64,000 bases of DNA, taken from contig CASDOZ010000001.1 in assembly GCA_949282265.1 (NCBI GenBank), forward strand, positions 124,001 through 188,000. Direction: 5' to 3'. Numbering within the stretch: position 1 is the stretch's first letter; each line of letters opens with the position of its first letter. The position numbers and the translations under genes were made by a program. Origin of the DNA: an uncultured Bacteroidales bacterium (GTDB lineage: Bacteria > Bacteroidota > Bacteroidia > Bacteroidales > Paludibacteraceae). Positions 38,185 to 50,763 of this stretch are shown here, piece after piece. Below the pieces are notes generated by a model. The model did no database searches. It saw nothing but the letters and a program-made list of their open reading frames with translations, and was not told the DNA's origin.

Positions 38185-39326
38185 GATGGTTGTTCTTCGC
38201 CTTTGTTCGTATTTGTTTTCTTTTTGTTGTTCCGTTTGCGTTTGGAACGGCTTTTTTTCTTGTCAAAGCGGGTCAGGTCATCTTGTCCTACAACATTTTT
38301 GTAGTCGATTCCGCTTGGTGCGACGGTATTTTTTTGCGTACTCAGGCCGACTGGTTTTTCTCCGCGTTTGTTCATGGCAATGATTTCTTTTGCCCGCTCG
38401 GAACTGATGGTTACCAGATTCGCCGGCATATTCGGTGCGGTCGAATACGTTAGTTCATTTTTGAGCGTATCCGTTTTGAAATGGTAGTATGTGCCATCTT
38501 GTGTTTCCAGTTGGGTGTCCCGACGCGGGAAATCCTTTTGGGCATCCAGATAGGTGTCCAGCTCATAGTTCATGCAGCATTTCAGTTTGGCGCATTGTCC
38601 GGCCAGTTTTTGCGGGTTAAGCGACATGTCCTGGATGCGCGCAGCGCTTGTTGCCACGGAGCAGAAACTTGACATCCAGGTTGTGCAACACATTTCGCGT
38701 CCGCATGGTCCGATTCCGCCAATGCGTCCGGCTTCCTGGCGTGCGCCTATCTGTTTCATTTCTATGCGGACGCGGAAAGTCTCGGCCAGCACCTTGATTA
38801 GTTGCCTGAAATCGACGCGTTCGTCGGCTATATAGTAAAATATGGCTTTGTTGCCGTCGCCTTGATATTCCACATCACCGATTTTCATTTTCAATCCCAG
38901 ATTGTTGGCAAGCTGCCGGGCACGGATCATGGTGTCCTGCTCTTTTGCCTTGGCTTCTTTCCATTTCTGCAAATCGGCCTCTTTGGCTATGCGGTATATC
39001 TTGCGTATTTCGTAACGGTTTGTGTCGATATGGTTTTTTTTCATTTGAAGCGGCACAAGTTTGCCGGTCAATGTCACTTCACCCACATCGTGGCCGGGGT
39101 TGGCTTCCACTGTGACGATAACGCCTTTTTCCAGGGGCAAATGTTCGCTGTTCAAGAAATAGCCCTTGCGTGTGTTTTTGAACTGCACTTCTACAAGGTC
39201 AGTTTCTTTTACGGTTTCCGGCAAGTCGCACATCCAGTCCGTGACACTCAATTTGAGTGCGGTGTTCCTGCAATATCCTTTTTTATTTATTTGGCATCTG
39301 CCGTCGTTCAGTGTGAAATCGTTCAT
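38181..39326 (-). CDS. ricT: PSP1-domain protein, RicT type
   Basis: A 381-residue PSP1-domain protein. In Bacillus, RicT (YaaT) forms an iron-sulfur complex with YlbF and YmcA that steers RNase Y. PSP1 region about 45-235, with the Cys-rich block GPCGREMCCTTWMSSF and AGQCAKLKCCMNYE, likely cluster ligands. The C-terminus (after about 340) is a lysine-rich tail. Interestingly, rny lies about 3.3 kb downstream on the same strand. It lies 13 bases after holB and is coupled to gldH. Confidence 0.9.
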   Translation of the reverse strand: MNDFTLNDGRCQINKKGYCRNTALKLSVTDWMCDLPETVKETDLVEVQFKNTRKGYFLNSEHLPLEKGVIVTVEANPGHDVGEVTLTGKLVPLQMKKNHIDTNRYEIRKIYRIAKEADLQKWKEAKAKEQDTMIRARQLANNLGLKMKIGDVEYQGDGNKAIFYYIADERVDFRQLIKVLAETFRVRIEMKQIGARQEAGRIGGIGPCGREMCCTTWMSSFCSVATSAARIQDMSLNPQKLAGQCAKLKCCMNYELDTYLDAQKDFPRRDTQLETQDGTYYHFKTDTLKNELTYSTAPNMPANLVTISSERAKEIIAMNKRGEKPVGLSTQKNTVAPSGIDYKNVVGQDDLTRFDKKKSRSKRKRNNKKKTNTNKGEEQPS

Positions 39327-39339
39327 AATGAAAATAAGT

Positions 39340-40494
39340 TTATCTTTTCAGCAACATAATAATTTTCAGAGAAATATCGAAGAAAACCATTTTTGCGTTC
39401 GTATTTTGTTCTATCTGTTTTTCAGCAACCTCCAGTTCGTTCATCAAATCTTCCACATTGCGTTCGTTAATGAATGCGGCAAATTTTTGTGAGAACTGTT
39501 CTTCGTCGCTTGTCATGTAATTCAATGCCGGCTGATGCACGTTGTATATAAAATTTTCGCGTACAAGCCGTTGTGAGTATTGTAAAAAATATTTTTGGCG
39601 TTCGCGGCCTACTCCGCTGGCGGCCATGTCCTCGCTCCATTTCCGCAGGCTCATCAAGGCGGCATAATCGCGCTTGTTTCCGACCAGCCATGCCCACCGC
39701 ATAAGTTGCACGAAACGTTCAAAATTAAGCCTGTTTTCATCGTCGTTTTCTTCGAGCCGAAGGGCGTTCAAATAGCTTCCGTTGGCTATATGTGCCAGAT
39801 TTTCAGCCGCTTCTTGGGCTAGGGAAACGTTGTGTGTGCACAATGCTGCGGCTATTTCATTTTGTTCTATACGTGGCACATTTATGCGTTGCGTCCGCGA
39901 CAGAATGGTAGCCAGCAGGTTTTCCGGCTGGTTGCTGACCAGCAAGAAGACTGTTTTTTCGGGAGGTTCTTCCAAAATTTTCAGCAACTTGTTGGCACAA
40001 ACCGGATTCATTTTTTCTGGCAGCCAGATAATCATGACCTTGTATTCCGATTCATAAGTTTTCAAGCTCAATTTACGCAGGATTTCCGAGCTTTCGTTGG
40101 CATAAATGGTGCCGGACTTGCTGTCCGCGCCAATGAAACCGTACCATTCGTTTTCGCTGAAATATTTTTTTTCCAAAATGATTTTACGGAAATCGGCGCC
40201 GAAGTCATCGCACACGACTGATTTGGAATCGCCCGGTTTTACAATCGGGAACACAAAATGCAGGTCGGGATGTTGCAATTTGGCGTATTTGATGCACGAA
40301 GGGCATTGTCCGCATGAATCGGTTTCCGTACGGTTCGTGCATGAAATATATTGCGCATAGGCAATGGCTAATTGCAGTTTTCCGACACCGGCCGGCCCGC
40401 AAAGCAGTTGCGCGTGCGGAATCCGTTGTTCGCACACGGTTTGTATCAGCCTTTTTTTGATGGTTTCTTGCCCTATGATATCGGAAAATTTCAT
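39340..40494 (-). CDS. holB: DNA polymerase III delta' subunit (HolB-type clamp-loader ATPase)
   Basis: A 384-residue AAA+ clamp-loader subunit. MKFSDIIGQETIKKRLIQTV, HAQLLCGPAGVGKLQLAIAYA (degenerate Walker A ending GKL rather than GKT/S, as expected for a non-hydrolysing delta'), zinc-finger CGQCPSCIKYA, and sensor region LLVSNQPENLLATILSRTQRI. The open frame extends 33 codons upstream from a TTG, but a TATCTTTG box ends 6 bases before ATG 40494, so translation must begin here, on a nearly leaderless message. Confidence 0.9.
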   Translation of the reverse strand: MKFSDIIGQETIKKRLIQTVCEQRIPHAQLLCGPAGVGKLQLAIAYAQYISCTNRTETDSCGQCPSCIKYAKLQHPDLHFVFPIVKPGDSKSVVCDDFGADFRKIILEKKYFSENEWYGFIGADSKSGTIYANESSEILRKLSLKTYESEYKVMIIWLPEKMNPVCANKLLKILEEPPEKTVFLLVSNQPENLLATILSRTQRINVPRIEQNEIAAALCTHNVSLAQEAAENLAHIANGSYLNALRLEENDDENRLNFERFVQLMRWAWLVGNKRDYAALMSLRKWSEDMAASGVGRERQKYFLQYSQRLVRENFIYNVHQPALNYMTSDEEQFSQKFAAFINERNVEDLMNELEVAEKQIEQNTNAKMVFFDISLKIIMLLKR

Positions 40495-40500
40495 ATTTTG

Positions 40501-40508
40501 CAAAGATA
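40501..40508 (-). promoter_or_regulatory. -7 box directly before holB
   Basis: TATCTTTG on the minus strand ends six bases before the ATG at 40494. No convincing -33 TTG is visible at normal spacing. If used, the mRNA is leaderless or nearly so. Confidence 0.5.
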
Positions 40509-40816
40509 CAAAAACTCGCCTAAATACGGATAAATTCAAAAAGAATAATGCAAATGATTGATAATTAATCAAATTACAGCCTGTGCATTTCAAGGAATCT
40601 GGAGAAAAGCAGTTGCCGGCATACAGGGATTTAAAAATCTGGTATTTATGCTGAATGTAAAATTATTCCGTTGGATACTGTAAAATTTCCGGGATGTCGG
40701 TAACTTTGTTGTGGAAACAAGTCTGTGGTTTTATTGAAAAAGAATACGGAAAAAATTTTGGCTATGTATAGTTTTCGGGTCGCTTTGTGGTCTAACAAGT
40801 AAAAACAGCATGTGAA
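40509..40816. other. Spacer upstream of the ECF sigma gene
   Basis: No coding region is seen. TAACTTTG at 40701-40708 could be a -7 box for the sigma gene, with the nearest TTG (40671-40673) spaced too far to be convincing. Confidence 0.35.
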
Positions 40817-41299
40817 ATGAATGCGAAAGAACAACAATTCACAAATATCATCCGGGAGCATGAGCGGACTATCTATACCGTCTGCTATATGTTTTCGAGC
40901 AATACGGACGAGGTGAACGACCTCTATCAGGACATTCTCGTCCGCTTGTGGCAAGGCTTCGATACCTTTGAGGGGAAGAGCGATATCCGAACGTGGATCT
41001 ATCGCGTTAGCCTGAACTATTGCATCAACTTCAGTAAACGGCAGAAGAAGCAGCGCGAACGACTGGACTTAGGCACGGGTTTTCCTTCGGAAGGGAGAAG
41101 TCTTGAAAAAAATTTGCAGATAAAGCAGCTTTATAAGCGGATCAATGCATTGGGACTGGTGGACAGAAGCGTGGTTCTGTTGTGGCTCGAAGGCCTGAGC
41201 TACGACGAAATCGGCGCTATCCTGGGTATTTCTGTCAAGAATGTCTCGTTCAAGCTGGTCCGCATCAAGGAACAACTCAAAAAAATGTCTAACATTTAA
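40817..41299 (+). CDS. ECF-type RNA polymerase sigma factor
   Basis: A 160-residue sigma-70-family factor with only regions 2 and 4. Region 2: TVCYMFSSNTDEVNDLYQDILVRLWQ, then FEGKSDIRTWIYRVSLN. Region 4: SVVLLWLEGLSYDEIGAILGISVKNVSFKLVRIKEQL, a clear helix-turn-helix. It directs polymerase to a small regulon, probably in response to an envelope signal. The gene 12 bases downstream encodes a membrane protein, the usual position of an anti-sigma factor, though no zinc anti-sigma or FecR motif is present. Confidence 0.9.
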   Translation: MNAKEQQFTNIIREHERTIYTVCYMFSSNTDEVNDLYQDILVRLWQGFDTFEGKSDIRTWIYRVSLNYCINFSKRQKKQRERLDLGTGFPSEGRSLEKNLQIKQLYKRINALGLVDRSVVLLWLEGLSYDEIGAILGISVKNVSFKLVRIKEQLKKMSNI

Positions 41300-41311
41300 C
41301 AAACGAATCGT

Positions 41312-41893
41312 ATGGAAATTAATATCGAAAAAGAAATTCAGGCACTGAAATCGGAGTATAACGTGTTTAAGGAAGGGCTGGAAAAGCAGGAAACGCTGAA
41401 CGAAAAGTTCTTCAAGTCGCTGAGGAAACGGCCCGCGATGGCCATCAACAAGGAAATCAGGGATCGAATATTGGGTGATGTCGTGACGATACCCACGATT
41501 ATTGTGATTTGTATTCATATAGACTGGTCCTTGCTGTTTGGCATATTAGTGTCGTTGTGGGCTTTGGTTGATTTGGGTATTACCCTGTGGGTCAGCCGCA
41601 AGCTGGGCATGAACCATCTGCTGGACGACGATGTGCGGACGGTTACAGGCAAGATTGCTGGTTATCGCAAATTCTATGCGGGATCGCTCATTGCCGCCAT
41701 AGTTCCCGTGACTGCCATGTTCACTTATATTTTTATGCGGCTGTATGCCCAAGCGGATAACGCTACTGCTGTACGACTTATCACTATTTCGGGCATTATT
41801 TCCATCACTGTTGCCATTGTGATAACCCTGTGGCAATATAAAAAACATGTGAGAAGGTGCAGGGAACTGCTAGAGCAGTTTGAGGAAAAGTAG
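41312..41893 (+). CDS. Four-helix membrane protein next to the ECF sigma factor (possible anti-sigma partner)
   Basis: A 193-residue protein that I do not recognise. The N-terminal 50 residues are charged and helical (IEKEIQALKSEYNVFKEGLEKQE), then membrane segments at about 57-72, 73-95, 123-143 and 155-176, ending in a basic-acidic tail. With its cytoplasmic N-terminal helix, position right behind a sigma gene and the tight 12-base gap, it could sequester the sigma factor, but that is inference from context. Confidence 0.6.
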   Translation: MEINIEKEIQALKSEYNVFKEGLEKQETLNEKFFKSLRKRPAMAINKEIRDRILGDVVTIPTIIVICIHIDWSLLFGILVSLWALVDLGITLWVSRKLGMNHLLDDDVRTVTGKIAGYRKFYAGSLIAAIVPVTAMFTYIFMRLYAQADNATAVRLITISGIISITVAIVITLWQYKKHVRRCRELLEQFEEK

Positions 41894-41921
41894 TTAATTT
41901 ATAAGTTTTTCATGGACAGTT

Positions 41922-42230
41922 GTGGGCATCATCGGCAAGAACGTCCGCAACTGTCTTCAATCCATGAAGCGTCTCGACGAACCGATAGAAGTTACTATCG
42001 AAAGGTATGTTATCGGTTATCTGGTCTTCTGGCATATTGCCTATATTGATAAAGAAAAGATGGACAGATGTGACGATGAAAAGGTCATCGAATTTAAACG
42101 GAAGAAACTGGAGGAATACATCACCTCGCATCCTCCTATTGCTACTTTGCCGAAGTTCTACATTGTGTTTCTAAATCAGCCTCATATTGGCTGCGATACC
42201 CACGGCCTCAGTGATGTTTTCTGCACGTAG
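41922..42230 (+). pseudogene. Gene remnant reading into a LuxR-tail repeat
   Basis: An open frame from GTG 41922 (no good ATG) with protein-like composition in its first 83 codons (VIGYLVFWHIAYIDKEKMD, FKRKKLEEYITSHPP), then running antisense through the 74-base LuxR-tail repeat, where it ends. The natural C-terminus is therefore probably lost at about 42171. I do not recognise the family. It may be the 5' part of a gene cut when the adjacent module arrived. Confidence 0.45.
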
Positions 42231-42248
42231 TTTCTCGACGAGTTTCTT
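42171..42248 (-). repeat. Direct repeat copy A: LuxR-type regulator tail
   Basis: Bases 42175-42248 match 44916-44989 at 71 of 74 positions, in the same orientation. On the minus strand it encodes the last helices of a LuxR/GerE domain (KKLVEKLRAENITEAVGIAA) and a stop TAG. Upstream (42249-42415) the similarity ends and no gene is seen apart from a 27-codon open frame at 42314-42397 without support. Confidence 0.9.
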
Positions 42249-42415
42249 TGTTACACTACCGATTACTTTTTTTTAATTTACAATGCCTGCACTACTAATA
42301 TAACTTAAAATAAATGAAACACTCAACAATTGTCTCACATTGGAAAATAGAGAATCTTCTGCAAGACAACAATAATTTGGCCGTATTTAAAACATAAATC
42401 AGCAATAGAGAAATT

Positions 42416-43669
42416 TTAGTGTAACATTATAGAATCACCATCTTGCATAGGAGTAACCGACCATTGATTGCAGAATAGTTTAGCAAATATTTCCGGTGCA
42501 TCAGTATGCATAGGAATTATAGCTTTGGGAGAAAGCTGCGTGAAGAGATTCTGAAGGCTTTCCATGTCACAGTGTCCACTGGTATGTCTATATAAATATC
42601 CTTTTCCGAGTGATGTTGCAAGATGTCCGTTATATGATGGTGATGATGGGTTATTTACATATCCATTCCACATAGAGAGATAGAATTGTTTAGGCTCACC
42701 TGGCAAGTTATTAACAAGATGGTCCAGTCGTGGATTACTTCTGGCTATCAATACATATCCTTTTTCTTTAAGAAAATCAATAAACTTATCACTGACAAGA
42801 TACTTGCCTATATTATTTTTGTCATACATTAAAACCAACGGTTTATATTTCCCATAATTATAGAGTTCGGCCTCTGACCAAATATGATTATTGCTGACAA
42901 TCGTATCCATGATATGCTTTTGATAAGAGTCCACTATAAAAGGGAGTTTGGTTCGCAATGCCGCATGATACAGTGAGAACAAGCGGTCAATATTAGTTGA
43001 GGACAAATATACAATGTTGAATTTATGCTGCTGGAAATCTTTCTCAAACTGTTGTTGTAATTCATGCTCTGTTTGTAAGGTTGCTTCTGAACGCTTTACA
43101 TTTGTTCCCTCGCAAACCACATAATCAACCTTTCCTATGAATTTATCAATTACATCAGGTAATTTTTTGCCGCGGAATCCGTGTGTGCGAAAATCACCAG
43201 TATGAAATACCTTAATCTCATTAGTCTCAATCTTGAAAGCGTAGGCATCAAAAGCAGAGTGGTCTATGTTTATTGGTGTTATTTTGAACAAACCAAATTC
43301 AAAAGCTTTACCGGCTTCAAAAGGAACTGTTTTCTCAAGACGCTTAAGTAAATTAGAATGTTTACTGTCAGCATATTTCAGTTGATTTGATGTTATCTTT
43401 TGAATCTCAAGACTTAAATTACCCATAAAAACAGGAACGTCATTGGGAATCTGATGAATGTTACCTATATGGTCGCCATGATAGTGAGTGATAAGTACAG
43501 CACTTTTTGAAGTATCTCCTTTTGTCAGTCCGTCAATGTTGAGTGGTTCGGGTGCAGGCATACCTGGTAACTGTTCGCCGAAATCGACAAACAGTCGCCA
43601 ACCTTTATGCTCATACTCTGTTACTGAGCCACCAATCTGATTTGCTCCGCGATGGATAGTTATTTTCAC
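42416..43669 (-). CDS. RNase J-like beta-CASP metallo-hydrolase
   Basis: A 417-residue metallo-beta-lactamase-fold protein. N-terminal GANQIGGSVTEYEHKGWRLF is RNase J-like. Zinc motifs: Asp29 (FVDFGEQ), THYHGDH (61-67), His137 (NIDHSAFDAY), Asp159 (HTGDF). Beta-CASP motifs: Glu187 (CEGTN), His362/366 (RHTSGH) and His388 (IPMHTD). Together these indicate a zinc nuclease, probably on RNA. It is shorter than RNase J (about 550) and lacks its C-terminal domain. Its start overlaps the stop of the PD-(D/E)XK-like gene by 4 bases. The region is more AT-rich than its neighbours and flanked by a direct repeat, which suggests acquisition. It could be a defence or RNA-quality module. Confidence 0.85.
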   Translation of the reverse strand: MKITIHRGANQIGGSVTEYEHKGWRLFVDFGEQLPGMPAPEPLNIDGLTKGDTSKSAVLITHYHGDHIGNIHQIPNDVPVFMGNLSLEIQKITSNQLKYADSKHSNLLKRLEKTVPFEAGKAFEFGLFKITPINIDHSAFDAYAFKIETNEIKVFHTGDFRTHGFRGKKLPDVIDKFIGKVDYVVCEGTNVKRSEATLQTEHELQQQFEKDFQQHKFNIVYLSSTNIDRLFSLYHAALRTKLPFIVDSYQKHIMDTIVSNNHIWSEAELYNYGKYKPLVLMYDKNNIGKYLVSDKFIDFLKEKGYVLIARSNPRLDHLVNNLPGEPKQFYLSMWNGYVNNPSSPSYNGHLATSLGKGYLYRHTSGHCDMESLQNLFTQLSPKAIIPMHTDAPEIFAKLFCNQWSVTPMQDGDSIMLH

Positions 43670-44688
43670 ATTCTAAGTTGATTTGGATAAGTTCCAAAAA
43701 ATATAAATGTTTCATCCTTTTGGAATGCTTCATTATCATAATATAATGAGTGACAATGAAGAATAACGTCAAGTCCTTTTAATGGTATGTTAACATTACA
43801 AAATTCCTCTGTCGTTCCTTTAGGCATAATAGTCACAACATCAATGTCTAATGTCTTTGGCATTTCTTTAATTACACGAATCTGTTTTTTTTCACCTATT
43901 ACTCTTAAAGGCCTTCCCATAAAGAAATCCCACCAATGCTGACCTGATTTGCTCCGAAGTAAGTGTGCGATAAAAATGGCATACGTTATAGCCTGTCCCA
44001 TGGCCATTTTTTGACTTTCTGCCGGTTTATTTTCGTCTTTAACCTCCATTACACAGATACGTGAATCACCTTCGATCGATTTTACACGTGCCAGAATATC
44101 AATGCCTCCCCCCTTATCTGTGTATTTCGGGTAATGCGTACTTGCCTTGAGCGGCGTTGGCATCTGGAAAAATAGTTTATAAAGTCTGATTGGTTGAATA
44201 TAACAAAGGGCTTTTTCTTTACTTGACCTTTTACTGAATTCTTTTAGAAGACAGTTCTCAACACGATGTTCCTCGCTTTTAGGATATTTTCTATCAGTAA
44301 CATTGAATTCAGTAGTAAACTTTAAAGATTCCTTTTTGAAAAAACTTCGGAAGTTACTCGCTTCTATGCTATCCCAATTTATTTTTTTGCGGAAATCAAA
44401 ATTGAAATACTTTTGGTTTGTTTCTGATTTAGGACAAAGCAACACTTCTTTAGTTGCAGTTTCCAAAACCGTTGCTATACTTTGACCTCTAAAACGTAAA
44501 TCATAAGATTTTCCTTTTCTCCCTATTGAGCTATATAAGGATAAACCTTCTGGCTTTCTAAAAGAACGCACTTCTATTTGAGCGCTGTTGTTGGCAATGT
44601 TTTGAATGTATCGCTGATATTGTTCCTCCCATTTGTTATTTTCTGCAAGCAAGTCTGTTGTGAATTGAATAATCTGATTTATTTCCAT
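43666..44688 (-). CDS. PD-(D/E)XK nuclease-like protein, first gene of two-gene module
   Basis: A 340-residue protein of no family I can name. The segment GGGIDILARV (Asp197) followed by RICVMEVKDE (Glu215, Lys217) and GQAITYAI (Gln232, Tyr236) fits the D-ExK-QxxxY pattern of restriction-like nuclease folds. The N-terminal 180 residues are unassigned, with many Lys and aromatic residues (KYFNFDFRKKINW, FRSFFKKESLKF), perhaps a nucleic-acid-binding part. No methylase or specificity gene is near. It is coupled to the beta-CASP gene by a 4-base overlap, which suggests the two products work together. Confidence 0.65.
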   Translation of the reverse strand: MEINQIIQFTTDLLAENNKWEEQYQRYIQNIANNSAQIEVRSFRKPEGLSLYSSIGRKGKSYDLRFRGQSIATVLETATKEVLLCPKSETNQKYFNFDFRKKINWDSIEASNFRSFFKKESLKFTTEFNVTDRKYPKSEEHRVENCLLKEFSKRSSKEKALCYIQPIRLYKLFFQMPTPLKASTHYPKYTDKGGGIDILARVKSIEGDSRICVMEVKDENKPAESQKMAMGQAITYAIFIAHLLRSKSGQHWWDFFMGRPLRVIGEKKQIRVIKEMPKTLDIDVVTIMPKGTTEEFCNVNIPLKGLDVILHCHSLYYDNEAFQKDETFIFFGTYPNQLRM

Positions 44689-44776
44689 ATATTTGTATTT
44701 TTTAGGTTATTCATTCAAGCCTTTTGAGGATTATTTACAAGTTCCGTCCTAGTATGCATTTAAAGAAGCGTGGCGG

Positions 44777-44829
44777 AAATTATTGTCTAAAAGTAATACT
44801 TTTTTTTCGTTATGCCAAATTATTGTCTA
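44777..44829. repeat. Two 13-base direct repeats upstream of the nuclease module
   Basis: AAATTATTGTCTA occurs at 44777-44789 and 44817-44829, 40 bases apart (about four helical turns), 90-140 bases before the start of the module's first gene. It could be an operator for a dimeric regulator; chance in AT-rich DNA is not excluded. Confidence 0.45.
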
Positions 44830-44911
44830 TTTTTCATTAATTATCGATCAATCTCCTAATCCGGATAATAAATGTATCTCCATTTAAGTTGAATGTGTAT
44901 TATTGATGTTG

Positions 44912-45088
44912 TTATATCAGCTTCAGATTGGCTGCGATGCCCACGGCCTCAGTGATGTTTTCTGCACGTAGTTTCTCGACGAGTTTCTTCTTGTGAAATT
45001 TGACGGTATTGGCATCTATAAAGAGAGTTTCTCCAATCTCCGTATTCATTTGTTTCTTGTCTACAAAGTTAGAAAAATCTGTCTGATT
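44912..45088 (-). pseudogene. LuxR-family regulator remnant (C-terminal HTH only), contains direct repeat copy B
   Basis: The minus-strand frame encodes NTEIGETLFIDANTVKFHKK, KLVEKLRAENITEAVGIAAN and a stop TAA, the GerE/LuxR helix-turn-helix. An in-frame stop lies at 45091-45089 and no start codon or sensor domain precedes it, so only about 50 residues of a regulator remain. Its tail (44916-44989) repeats 42175-42248. The missing 5' part would lie where the metF promoter region now is. Confidence 0.8.
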
Positions 45089-45227
45089 TTAATTGCCAAG
45101 GCATTTACTTTCCGCGTTATTTGTCATTGATTATGGAAATCTTGTACAAATCTTTGTAAATCAAACAAATATGTGACAAATATGGTGAAAAGCCGCAAAT
45201 GCGGCGGCTTATTAACAAAAAAATGCG

Positions 45228-45235
45228 TACTTTTG
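45228..45235 (+). promoter_or_regulatory. -7 box upstream of metF
   Basis: TACTTTTG, with no clear -33 TTG. A GC-rich hairpin (AAGCCGC, loop, GCGGCTT, 45190-45210) lies just upstream. Predicted leader is about 57 bases. I looked for SAM riboswitch features and saw none. Confidence 0.45.
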
Positions 45236-45298
45236 TCCGCATATAAATCTTGCTTAGGTTCTTTAAACCGGACCTTGGAATTTGCCAAATATTTGGAT

Positions 45299-46249
45299 AT
45301 GAGTATAGTAGAAAAGATAAAATCATCCGCTTCCACGACATTTTCGTTTGAATTGCTTCCTCCCCTGAAAGGCAAGGGAATGGATTCGGTCATACGGACA
45401 ATAGATGCCTTGCGCGAATTTGACCCGAAATACATCAACATTACAACCCATCGCAGCGAAATGGTTTACAAGCCGACGGAAAGCGGTTTGTACAAATGTG
45501 TGCCGGAACGTCATCGGCCCGGAACCGTAGCTGTCGCGGCGGCCATCCAGCATAAATATGGCATTCCGGTGGTTCCGCATATTCTGTGCAGCGGTTTTAC
45601 GCGCGAGGAAACGGAATATGTGCTGATTGATTTGCAGTTTCTGGGTATAACCGATTTGTTGCTGCTGCGTGGCGACAAAGGCAAGCATGAAAAAACTTTT
45701 GTATCGTTGGGAAACACGCATGCTACGGATTTGCAGGAACAAGTGAATCGGTTCAACGAAGGTTTTTTCCAGGATGGTACGCCCATGGCGGGAAACATCG
45801 GGCAGAAATTCAGCTATGGCATGGCCTGCTATCCGGAAAAGCATGAAGAAGCGCCAAACATGGAGTCGGATTTGTTTTATGCCAAACAAAAGGTAGATGC
45901 CGGTGCGGAATATTTGGTTACGCAAATGTTCTTTGATAACCGGAAATATTTCGATTTTGTGGACAAATGCCGCGAAACAGGCATTACCGTGCCGATTATT
46001 CCCGGGCTTAAACCGCTTACGCTGATGAACCAGCTTACGGTTTTGCCGAAAATCTTCCACACGGACATACCGGAGGCATTTGCCATCGAGTTGCGCAAAT
46101 GCAAGACAGATGCCGAAGTTGTCGAGGTGGGTGTCGAATGGCTGACGGAGCAAGCAAGGGAACTGATTTCCAGAGGTGCGCCGAGCCTTCATTTTTATAC
46201 ATTAATGGCAACGCAGAGCGTGAAACGTGTTGCGCAGGCTGTATTTTGA
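45299..46249 (+). CDS. metF: Methylenetetrahydrofolate reductase
   Basis: Reduces 5,10-methylenetetrahydrofolate to 5-methyltetrahydrofolate for methionine synthesis; an FAD-containing TIM barrel. A 316-residue protein with FSFELLPPLKGKG, YINITTHRS, PHILCSGFTREE, LLLLRGDKG, GAEYLVTQMFFDN and PIIPGLKPLT. I take ATG 45299 (MSIVEKIKSS); the open frame extends 42 codons upstream through the promoter region without coding character. The C-terminus PSLHFYTLMAT is typical. Confidence 0.95.
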   Translation: MSIVEKIKSSASTTFSFELLPPLKGKGMDSVIRTIDALREFDPKYINITTHRSEMVYKPTESGLYKCVPERHRPGTVAVAAAIQHKYGIPVVPHILCSGFTREETEYVLIDLQFLGITDLLLLRGDKGKHEKTFVSLGNTHATDLQEQVNRFNEGFFQDGTPMAGNIGQKFSYGMACYPEKHEEAPNMESDLFYAKQKVDAGAEYLVTQMFFDNRKYFDFVDKCRETGITVPIIPGLKPLTLMNQLTVLPKIFHTDIPEAFAIELRKCKTDAEVVEVGVEWLTEQARELISRGAPSLHFYTLMATQSVKRVAQAVF

Positions 46250-46295
46250 TTTTTGAATTATGTTCCGTTCGTGAGGACGGGAAAATCCATTGATT

Positions 46296-46526
46296 ATGCA
46301 TTTGTTATTTTCCATATTGTTCCTGCTCCTGCTGCTGTTTTTCTTTATTTTCATCGTGGCAGGTATATTTGGCATATTCCGTTCCCTGTTTACCGGCAAC
46401 CGGCAGAAGAATGCTGTCCGCAAGACGACTGTTTCGCAGGAACCTGTCCGCCGCCGTGAAAAGTTCTTCAAGGAGGATGAAGGCGAATATGTGGACTATG
46501 AAGAAATAGACAAGGATGCCGAGTAA
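46296..46526 (+). CDS. Small membrane protein (DUF4834-like)
   Basis: A 76-residue protein: one strongly hydrophobic N-terminal helix (residues about 2-28, LLFSILFLLLLLFFFIFIV), a basic stretch (GNRQKNAVRKTTV) and an acidic tail (EDEGEYVDYEEIDKDAE). This matches a small family of unknown function that I recall from Bacteroidetes as DUF4834. ATG 46296 is preferred over upstream TTG/ATT codons. It follows metF by 46 bases and may be cotranscribed. Confidence 0.7.
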   Translation: MHLLFSILFLLLLLFFFIFIVAGIFGIFRSLFTGNRQKNAVRKTTVSQEPVRRREKFFKEDEGEYVDYEEIDKDAE

Positions 46527-46585
46527 AACGACATTTTGTCAGAAATTCAGCCAAAAAATTCCATTTATACGAGAAAAAGTGTCAT

Positions 46586-46618
46586 TTTGTCATAAAAATG
46601 CTTGTTGCATGTAATTTG
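46586..46618 (+). promoter_or_regulatory. Possible Hsp20 promoter
   Basis: TTTG (46586-46589), 22 bases, then TAATTTG (46612-46618), one base short of the consensus. The gene also has a strong AGGAGG at 46689-46694, eight bases before the ATG, which is unusual in this phylum. Confidence 0.45.
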
Positions 46619-46702
46619 CAAAAGCGGGTGTCGAAGACGGTTCTGAAAAGGGTCGTATTCAAAAAATAGAAATGTTGAACTTAATTATAGGAGGATTTAA
46701 CT

Positions 46703-47131
46703 ATGACACTCGCAAGAAGAAATCAAAATTGGTTACCGTCGATTTTCAATGACTTTTTCGACAATGATTGGATGGAACGTACCAGTGCTACCGCGCCAGC
46801 TATCAACGTAAAGGAATCGAAAGATGAATATTTGATTGAAGTTGCTGCTCCTGGCATGACGAAGGATGATTTCAATGTACACATTGAAGGAGATGATGCG
46901 TTGGTTATCTGCATGGAAAAGAAGAATGAAAGCAAAGAAGAGAAAAAAGAAACCCGTTTCTTACGTCGCGAATTTTCTTATTCTCAATTCCAACAAACGA
47001 TGATTTTGCCGGATGATGTGGATAAGGAAAAAATCGAAGCCAAAATGGAGAATGGCGTTTTGCATATCAATTTGCCGAAATTGTCAGTTGAACAACAGCA
47101 GAAAGCAAAACGTGTTATATCGATTAACTAA
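46703..47131 (+). CDS. Small heat-shock protein, Hsp20/alpha-crystallin family
   Basis: An ATP-independent chaperone that binds unfolding proteins. A 142-residue protein with the alpha-crystallin domain at about 30-130: PAINVKESKDEYLIEVAAPG, TRFLRREFSYSQFQQTMILP, and the conserved ENGVLHINLPK (A-x-x-x-n-G-v-L motif). The I-x-I tail is represented by RVISIN. The strong Shine-Dalgarno and tight terminator suggest high, regulated expression. No heat-shock inverted repeat (CIRCE) is present. Confidence 0.95.
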   Translation: MTLARRNQNWLPSIFNDFFDNDWMERTSATAPAINVKESKDEYLIEVAAPGMTKDDFNVHIEGDDALVICMEKKNESKEEKKETRFLRREFSYSQFQQTMILPDDVDKEKIEAKMENGVLHINLPKLSVEQQQKAKRVISIN

Positions 47132-47158
47132 TCGATTACAGGTAACTGATATAGCGAA

Positions 47159-47187
47159 GGATACCCCGCGCGGGGTATCCTTTTTTT
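47159..47187 (+). terminator. Hsp20 terminator
   Basis: A fully palindromic stem, GGATACCCCGC/GCGGGGTATCC, is followed by seven T. Confidence 0.92.
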
Positions 47188-47266
47188 GTATATGGGCATT
47201 GGGCGGCATTTGAAAAAATGTTTATAATTTTCCTTTTTCAAATTAGCATGGCAGTTTTAATTCCAT

Positions 47267-49935: not shown

Positions 49936-50664
49936 TTATGATATGGCTTGTATATTGGTAAATTCTTTCCAATCTTCTGCTGTTTTATATGCATCTACAG
50001 ATTCTTGTGGCACGTAGACTGGTAGGGACAGATCGACTTGGTATGAAAACGCATCATTTGCTTTCGGGGGTATAATGGCCAATACTGTTATTTCTGCCAG
50101 TTTGGAACAACCATAAAATGTGGAAGAACCTATACTTGTTACGCCACTACCAATGACAATTTTTTCCATGGCAGTACATTGGGCAAATGTTCCGCCTTCT
50201 ATAACAGTAACGCTATTAGGTACAGTAATCTCTTTGAGTGAGAAGCAAAAACAAAATGCTTCACTCTCTATATATGTTACGCTATTAGGAATGTTAATGC
50301 TTTCAAGTGAAATGCAATGATCAAATGCAACACTTCCTATATGTGTTACGCTGTTGGCTATGGAAATATTTGTAGCTTTTTCACAGCCTCCAAATGCCCA
50401 TTCTCCAATGCGTGTTATGCCATTTTCGATAACTATGTTTTTAATTTCTGTTCTGTATTCATTCCATGGGTGGCTATAATCATTTTCACCATCAAAACTA
50501 TAATCAGGCATAGAACCTTTTCCCGATATAATAAGAGTAGCAGATGATGGGTCATATGTCCAATTGAAACCTTGTCCATTTATTGTTGTGTCTTCCTTGT
50601 CGCAGGCGCAGAATATGCACAGGAATGCTATGCATATCATTATTTTTGTTATGATCTTTTTCAT
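49936..50664 (-). CDS. BspA-type leucine-rich repeat lipoprotein
   Basis: A 242-residue lipoprotein (signal ICIAFLCIFCACDKED, lipobox FCAC). After a short linker with GKGSMPDYSF, it contains about six BspA-like (LRR_5) repeats of 23 residues: TRIGEWAFGGCEKATNISI, VTHIGSVAFDHCISLESINI, YIESEAFCFCFSLKEITV, VIEGGTFAQCTAMEKIVI, SIGSSTFYGCSKLAEITV. It ends in a cap with PVYVPQESVDAYKTAEDWKEF. Such proteins mediate adhesion in some oral Bacteroidales; the role here is unknown. The start is ATG 50664. Confidence 0.85.
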   Translation of the reverse strand: MKKIITKIMICIAFLCIFCACDKEDTTINGQGFNWTYDPSSATLIISGKGSMPDYSFDGENDYSHPWNEYRTEIKNIVIENGITRIGEWAFGGCEKATNISIANSVTHIGSVAFDHCISLESINIPNSVTYIESEAFCFCFSLKEITVPNSVTVIEGGTFAQCTAMEKIVIGSGVTSIGSSTFYGCSKLAEITVLAIIPPKANDAFSYQVDLSLPVYVPQESVDAYKTAEDWKEFTNIQAIS

Positions 50665-50692
50665 ATACACAGAATTATGGGAATTGTTTAAT

Positions 50693-50732
50693 CATACATG
50701 CCATTCCATGTTCGGGCGGAATGGCATGTATG
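50693..50732. terminator. Strong hairpin between 50764 and 50664 genes
   Basis: CATACATGCCATTCC pairs perfectly (15 bases) with GGAATGGCATGTATG. The T-rich flank is on the plus side, so it is a weak fit as a minus-strand terminator despite its position. Confidence 0.6.
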
Positions 50733-50763
50733 GATTTTCATTTTTTATATCACCTAAAAAGCA

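Follow-up and report, generated by a model that had tools for sequence, protein, structure and literature searches.

A constant beta-CASP metallo-beta-lactamase gene with exchangeable PD-(D/E)XK-like partners: a candidate two-nuclease defence module in a Bacteroidales genome

Several described systems share features with the locus analyzed here, a pair of genes on a 64,000-nucleotide stretch of DNA from an uncultured Bacteroidales bacterium (contig CASDOZ010000001.1, positions 124,001 to 188,000; hereafter the window, meaning the whole stretch), which are predicted to encode a beta-CASP metallo-beta-lactamase (MBL) nuclease, P0001, and a PD-(D/E)XK-like partner, P0002. P0001 resembles RNase J and EF2904 (PDB 2az4) both through its profile match and through its MBL and beta-CASP motifs. 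In type VII CRISPR-Cas, a beta-CASP nuclease, Cas14, serves immunity (excerpt of PMC12669027), and the P0001 family profile matches it at 9.2e-16. According to an excerpt of PMC12799240, HamM-type trypsin-MBL pairs (Hachiman, AVAST, Lamassu, DRT) likewise join an MBL nuclease to a second enzyme and are exchanged between contexts, and the Panacea toxin-antitoxin network likewise combines one constant component with exchanged partners (excerpt of PMC10440598).

On the evidence presented below, we are highly confident that the two genes form a real, conserved and modular unit. Judging from sequence and gene neighborhood, we further lean towards reading this unit as an undescribed modular two-nuclease defence system, in which a constant beta-CASP MBL would act with an interchangeable PD-(D/E)XK partner, and defence is probably the role of the module, being the most likely of those considered.

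Linkage between the MBL and its partner gene

An earlier note, made from the bare letters, had described two minus-strand genes sharing four bases, and the open reading frames (ORFs) at 44688-43666 and 43669-42416 are indeed arranged in this way:

43666..44688, minus strand: P0002, PD-(D/E)XK-like partner of 340 amino acids (aa), with D197, E215-x-K217, Q232 and Y236, and E140/E144 upstream; the swappable component
42416..43669, minus strand: P0001, RNase J-like beta-CASP MBL nuclease of 417 aa with a GTG start; the constant component
43666..43669, minus strand: 4-nucleotide (nt) overlap (GTGA) coupling P0002 and P0001

P0002 was found in its own genome only, among 101 genomes (its own and relatives), and as sole query it returned nothing beyond that genome in the relatives, 395 genomes of the phylum, plasmids, phages and viral contigs, so the MBL was taken as bait instead. 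Relatives of P0001 were detected in 6 of the 395 phylum genomes, including its own (E 1e-10), on 33 plasmid records (14 with 80% cover), in 5 viral contigs, and at least 573 times in representative-genome contigs at E 1e-3, a count that may include other beta-CASP proteins. The resulting set of 99 loci comprises the window, 9 plasmids, 4 genomes, 80 genome contigs (the best 80 of the at least 573) and the 5 viral contigs. L004 (the same place as L018) and L022/L008 (genome G436, MBL cut by a contig end) were left out; two loci were left out of single analyses: L096, whose MBL is interrupted or short, of the tree, and L033, which had no neighbor of at least 120 aa, of the partner count, run on the other 98 loci. 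Most loci come from Bacteroidota and Clostridia, with proteobacterial plasmids and viral contigs also represented, and the MBL relatives sit in many unrelated contexts, including plasmids.

Partners were recognized by motif or by homology to motif-bearing genes, taking the upstream gene first and excluding metallophosphoesterase genes, WYL genes and two small clusters; the linkage counts depend on this recognition and, since the loci are related, are not independent. Counted in this way, a partner lies within two genes of the MBL in 83 of the 99 loci (directly upstream in 65, directly downstream in 11, second gene in 7). Among loci with 1.2 kb or more of sequence to either side, it is present in 69 of 77 (69 of 78 with L033) and missing from 8 of 77 (9 of 78). 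More than half of the directly upstream partners (36 of 65, window included) overlap the MBL by 4 nt. A regular expression for the D...hydrophobic-ExK motif matched 57 of the 69 genes of at least 150 aa that end between -40 and +20 of the MBL start (52 of 60 at 230-420 aa); as a control, other ORFs from the same loci in that size range gave 32 matches out of 326 (Fisher, 57/69 vs 32/326: 1e-33, a value inflated because the loci are related and the expression was written after looking at the partners).

The linkage also held in the reverse direction. Profiles of partner groups A3 and A2, searched without use of the MBL, returned 10 loci in 395 genomes of the class and 4 besides the window in 393 genomes of the order, and at 11 of these 14 loci the MBL gene lies next to the partner. 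G451, one of the 11, had been known beforehand, and the genes behind the profiles were themselves neighbors of an MBL. In L064, partner and MBL are fused in a 720-aa ORF without a stop. Gene order varies among loci, and four plasmid records annotate the gene adjoining the MBL as 'hypothetical protein'.

The co-occurrence search proposed in the earlier note thus came out in favor of pairing both MBL-first and partner-first. The same note had held that a pair always found at one conserved position with vertical inheritance would argue against its proposal; what we observe instead are scattered contexts, plasmid copies and two-way coupling. It is hardly credible that the two genes are chance neighbors of unrelated function on an AT-rich insertion: such an explanation would fit a P0002 that occurs in none of the other 100 genomes and a locus that is variable, but it is contradicted by the two-way co-occurrence, the recurring 4-nt overlap and the fusion.

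Nuclease features and partner exchange

P0001 exceeds the Pfam cut-offs for Lactamase_B_2 (4e-12) and RMMBL (3.6e-5), and its MBL motifs together with beta-CASP motifs A, B and C place it in the beta-CASP MBL superfamily. These motifs, first picked out by eye, hold across the family: H62, H64, D66, H67, H137, D159, E187, H366 and H388 are unchanged wherever aligned (98 MBL rows; 97 or 98 per residue), with the full catalytic set in 96 of the 98 rows, the other 2 rows being themselves incomplete. Motif C is a histidine (H388) in 97 of the 97 rows having that residue, and since DNA-processing beta-CASP enzymes carry valine there according to an excerpt of PMC3095777, the residue favors RNA as a better guess than DNA for the substrate. 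Among solved structures, the P0001 family profile is closest to EF2904 (4.5e-39) and RNase J (7pcr, 1.8e-30), with CPSF73-type proteins and Cas14 further off. P0001 scores below the RNase J models of NCBIfam (TIGR00649, 55.3 bits vs 400; NF047419, 45.5 vs 820) and has no significant match in PADLOC-DB v2; 1 of 14 MBLs matched LmuA (PADLOC) at 0.00047.

Fourteen MBLs of ~610-635 aa (L024, L032, L034, L036, L037, L039, L040, L043, L044, L046, L051, L054, L063 and L065) carry an extra C-terminal domain of ~200 aa. That of L034, the sole example scanned, had no Pfam match, and a metallophosphoesterase identity was rejected, as the domain clusters apart from metallophosphoesterase. Stand-alone proteins of L018 (6841-7884) and L068 loosely resemble this domain by eye; BLAST gave no link.

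For P0002, no Pfam or NCBIfam family was found at E up to 1, and PADLOC-DB v2 gave no significant match, only GajB at E 0.017. The residues that the earlier note had singled out for their restriction-nuclease spacing (D197, E215, K217, Q232 and Y236) show no variation among the 8 aligned homologues of its class, P0002 being one of them, so that the class displays the conserved D...(D/E)xK by which the PD-(D/E)XK superfamily is recognized. In A3, an alignment of 26 chosen members of the largest linked partner group (21 of class 0, 4 of class 1 and 1 of class 9), E115, E140, D161, E177 and K179 are invariant. Profile comparison aligns the D and ExK cores across classes (A7-A3, P 0.0012; A7-A8, 0.0033; A8-A3, 0.0031), and the sole PDB match of A3 up to E 10, ST1444 (E 0.2), which we take to be a Holliday-junction-resolvase relative, is aligned exactly on D...ExK. 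TRAPPC3 (E 0.28), the only PDB match of A7, and the sub-threshold Pfam matches of partner genes were both taken as chance. Overall, these patterns are suggestive of PD-(D/E)XK-like nucleases for P0002 and the other partners.

Grouping by blastp (1e-15, 70% cover, single linkage) yielded 18 partner classes. On a quick MBL tree (98 rows, 82 labelled), at least 36 changes of partner class are needed; the lowest possible number is 17, and shuffled labels give a mean of 46.4 (range 42-48). Partner class differs in 24 of the 54 locus pairs whose MBLs are >80% identical, and partners without a BLAST match at E 1 accompany MBLs that are 93% identical (L041/L061) or 90-91% identical (L025/L032, L047/L050 and L090/L091/L098); at L047 and L050, one gene separates the partner from the MBL. 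Tree members of P0002's class (the window, L048, L051, L056 and L065) are scattered over the MBL tree, and the window MBL has an end branch of 0.51, compared with a median of 0.18.

A toxin-antitoxin-like pair, in which PD-(D/E)XK proteins would be exchangeable nuclease toxins and the MBL their constant neutralizer, is the main competing explanation and, in our judgment, an unlikely one. It would account for two overlapping genes of which one side is constant and the other swapped, and for a patchy module found also on plasmids, and hyperpromiscuous antitoxin domains such as Panacea offer a precedent (excerpt of PMC10440598). However, the MBL has intact catalytic residues in 96 of 98 rows, for which an antitoxin acting by binding would have no use, and gene order varies. 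In addition, the known hyperpromiscuous-type antitoxins are, to our knowledge, non-enzymes.

Genomic context and the window site

WYL genes number 30 in 29 loci (1.21 Mb, jackhmmer), with one lying no more than 4 kb upstream in 21 of 70 loci; relative to 60 Pfam-model matches in ~118.8 Mb of 41 genomes, the loci are ~50-fold richer per base. This WYL search in relatives and the ORFs of the same loci used for the regular expression served as context controls. Metallophosphoesterase genes adjoin the MBL in 16 loci, and 17 of 53 downstream genes match metallophosphoesterase families (Pfam Metallophos). A sample of 119 was taken from 340 nearby genes, and five partner- or module-like ones were removed by hand, leaving 114; among the PADLOC matches listed for them at 1e-10 (25 of 116) were WYL (7), Cas3c (5), type IIG and III restriction-modification, SoFic, IetA and candidate families. 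L011 (Cereibacter plasmid pORIO1) holds a partner-MBL-metallophosphoesterase unit between Tn3 transposase and TniB/TniQ genes, L009 adjoins two DUF262 genes, L015 adjoins methylase/Eco57I/GIY-YIG genes, and replication or repair genes lie near some loci. A PDC-S49 match among the neighbors of L099 was considered as a partner and rejected; it belongs to a KAP-NTPase-type neighbor.

Clusters of an MBL exonuclease and a metallophosphoesterase linked to DNA ligase exist, and the recurrent metallophosphoesterase genes, together with the replication or repair genes, could likewise point to a module by which mobile elements process DNA ends or repair DNA, with no immune role. We consider this quite improbable. 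NCBIfam contains a ligase-associated exonuclease model, and no such model is among P0001's NCBIfam matches; the exchange of partners is more in keeping with conflict than with a housekeeping role, and the WYL enrichment also speaks against it. So does motif C, with its histidine rather than the valine expected of DNA-processing enzymes (excerpt of PMC3095777).

Two small gene families were seen beside the module. A mini sigma-70 gene lies between partner and MBL in L047 (7654-8004) and L050 (3937-4278), possibly marking a regulatory variant of the module; two members of this family, assigned to these loci from their sequences, match MzaA. The other family, which lacks the D...ExK motif, sits beside the MBL in the proteobacterial plasmid loci L013, L015, L016 and L017 (134-194 aa when upstream, 124 aa downstream in L016); in L013 and L015, it is upstream of the MBL and the partner downstream.

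At the window locus, the module is surrounded by the following features:

42166..42248, minus strand: LuxR-tail repeat, downstream copy
44907..44989, minus strand: LuxR-tail repeat, upstream copy, in a truncated LuxR-type 3' end reaching ~45049 (by eye)
40842..45049, no strand assigned: variable segment, present in the window; the same-genus genome G001 has 71 bases in its place

The 74-base direct repeat reported earlier is exactly 71/74 identical and extends without gaps to 83 bases at 93%; its reading as a LuxR tail comes from its translation, by eye only. The block was also rightly described as AT-richer than its surroundings, with 35.0% GC between the repeats against 43.5% in the whole window, although the window has further dips to ~35% GC, as at 50250-50749, so that composition by itself is weak evidence. 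G001, the only same-genus genome returned among the relatives searched, has flanks matching window 39300-40841 and 45050-47194 (94-95% identical) and separated by the 71 bases. The missing 4.2 kb is wider than the repeat-bracketed block and holds, besides the module and the LuxR remnant, the greater part of an ECF sigma gene, an unknown ORF and a small ORF whose composition is membrane-like. The module occupies a variable site. No clean empty site was found in G001, however: traces of both ends of the segment persist there, among them the initial 25 bases of the sigma ORF, so that loss from G001 and gain in the window are equally possible. The note's mobile module is borne out in part, as a horizontally scattered nuclease pair. 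The repeat is unlikely to be the module's own mobility signal, since six relatives of P0002's partner class (L140 of the same class left out) had no bracketing repeat of at least 30 bases.

At or within the variable segment, window 40817-41893 contains the ECF sigma factor (Pfam) and a 193-aa ORF that reaches no Pfam cut-off and may encode a membrane-bound regulator of the sigma factor. ORF 41922-42230, previously taken for a cut-off gene, had no Pfam match. Other extras seen at relatives' loci (mini-sigma, Tn3/TniB/TniQ, DUF262 and restriction-methylase genes) are missing from the window locus.

The defence reading and known systems

Several points weigh against a defence system. The window module has no WYL or metallophosphoesterase gene adjoining it; around it lie genes for a sigma factor and for replication (holB-like, by eye), and metF. 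No partner was recognized in 16 of the 99 loci (6 of these have <600 bases upstream), and 3 of the 14 loci found partner-first have no adjacent MBL, namely L142 (partner interrupted by a stop), L147 and L151 (the weakest match). The fold proposed for P0002 draws on motifs and weak profiles, whose HHsuite probabilities of 10-20% leave the links between partner classes suggestive, and its own class has no sensible PDB match (none, or one taken as chance). Partner classes show some clustering by descent on the MBL tree, where the 36 changes lie below every shuffle, so that swapping is frequent but not free. Finally, WYL counts in the loci and in the background come from differing methods and taxa, and the PADLOC neighbor scan had no control.

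If the module does act in defence, it may cut and then degrade, although we hold this mechanism to be tentative and somewhat doubtful. Given their conserved D...ExK core and their exchange, the partners would recognize, through variable regions, some feature of invading nucleic acid and cut it. The MBL, like RNase J or other beta-CASP nucleases, would then degrade from the exposed ends or cleave associated RNA, and in some loci the metallophosphoesterase would complete end processing while the WYL regulator controlled expression. A broader generalization, which we regard as possible with clear reservations, is a widespread immune class with a constant beta-CASP RNase core and plug-in PD-(D/E)XK specificity nucleases, whose target could be changed by exchange of one gene and which would couple DNA cutting and RNA decay in one complex. 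A defence role would add a modular nuclease pair to the bacterial repertoire, and the natural swaps, with near-identical cores and unrelated partners, would serve as natural experiments on how the specificity of an immune nuclease is determined.

The statement in the earlier note that no described system pairs these two folds agrees with the open-access literature, PADLOC, Pfam and NCBIfam: the titles and abstract beginnings of the best-ranked open-access matches (subscription literature not covered) held no description of a beta-CASP MBL paired with a PD-(D/E)XK protein, and on these sources the pairing is undescribed. Compared with RNase J and EF2904, the MBL here is ~410 aa long, patchy and, in 83 of 99 loci, no more than two genes away from a PD-(D/E)XK-like gene, and P0001 falls well short of the score that the RNase J model demands (55 bits vs 400). 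With a chain ~190 aa short of the 609 aa of Cas14, it also has no room for the Cas10-like C-terminal domain of the latter; cas5 and cas7 were not seen among the annotated plasmid neighbors or the first 25 families of each listing, and CRISPR arrays were not searched for. No trypsin-like family appeared near the module among those listed families, and whereas HamM-type MBLs are ComEC-nuclease-like with a trypsin-like protease as partner (excerpt of PMC12799240), the MBL here is of beta-CASP type and paired with a PD-(D/E)XK-like protein. Unlike in Panacea, lastly, the constant component is predicted to be an apparently active metallo-nuclease.

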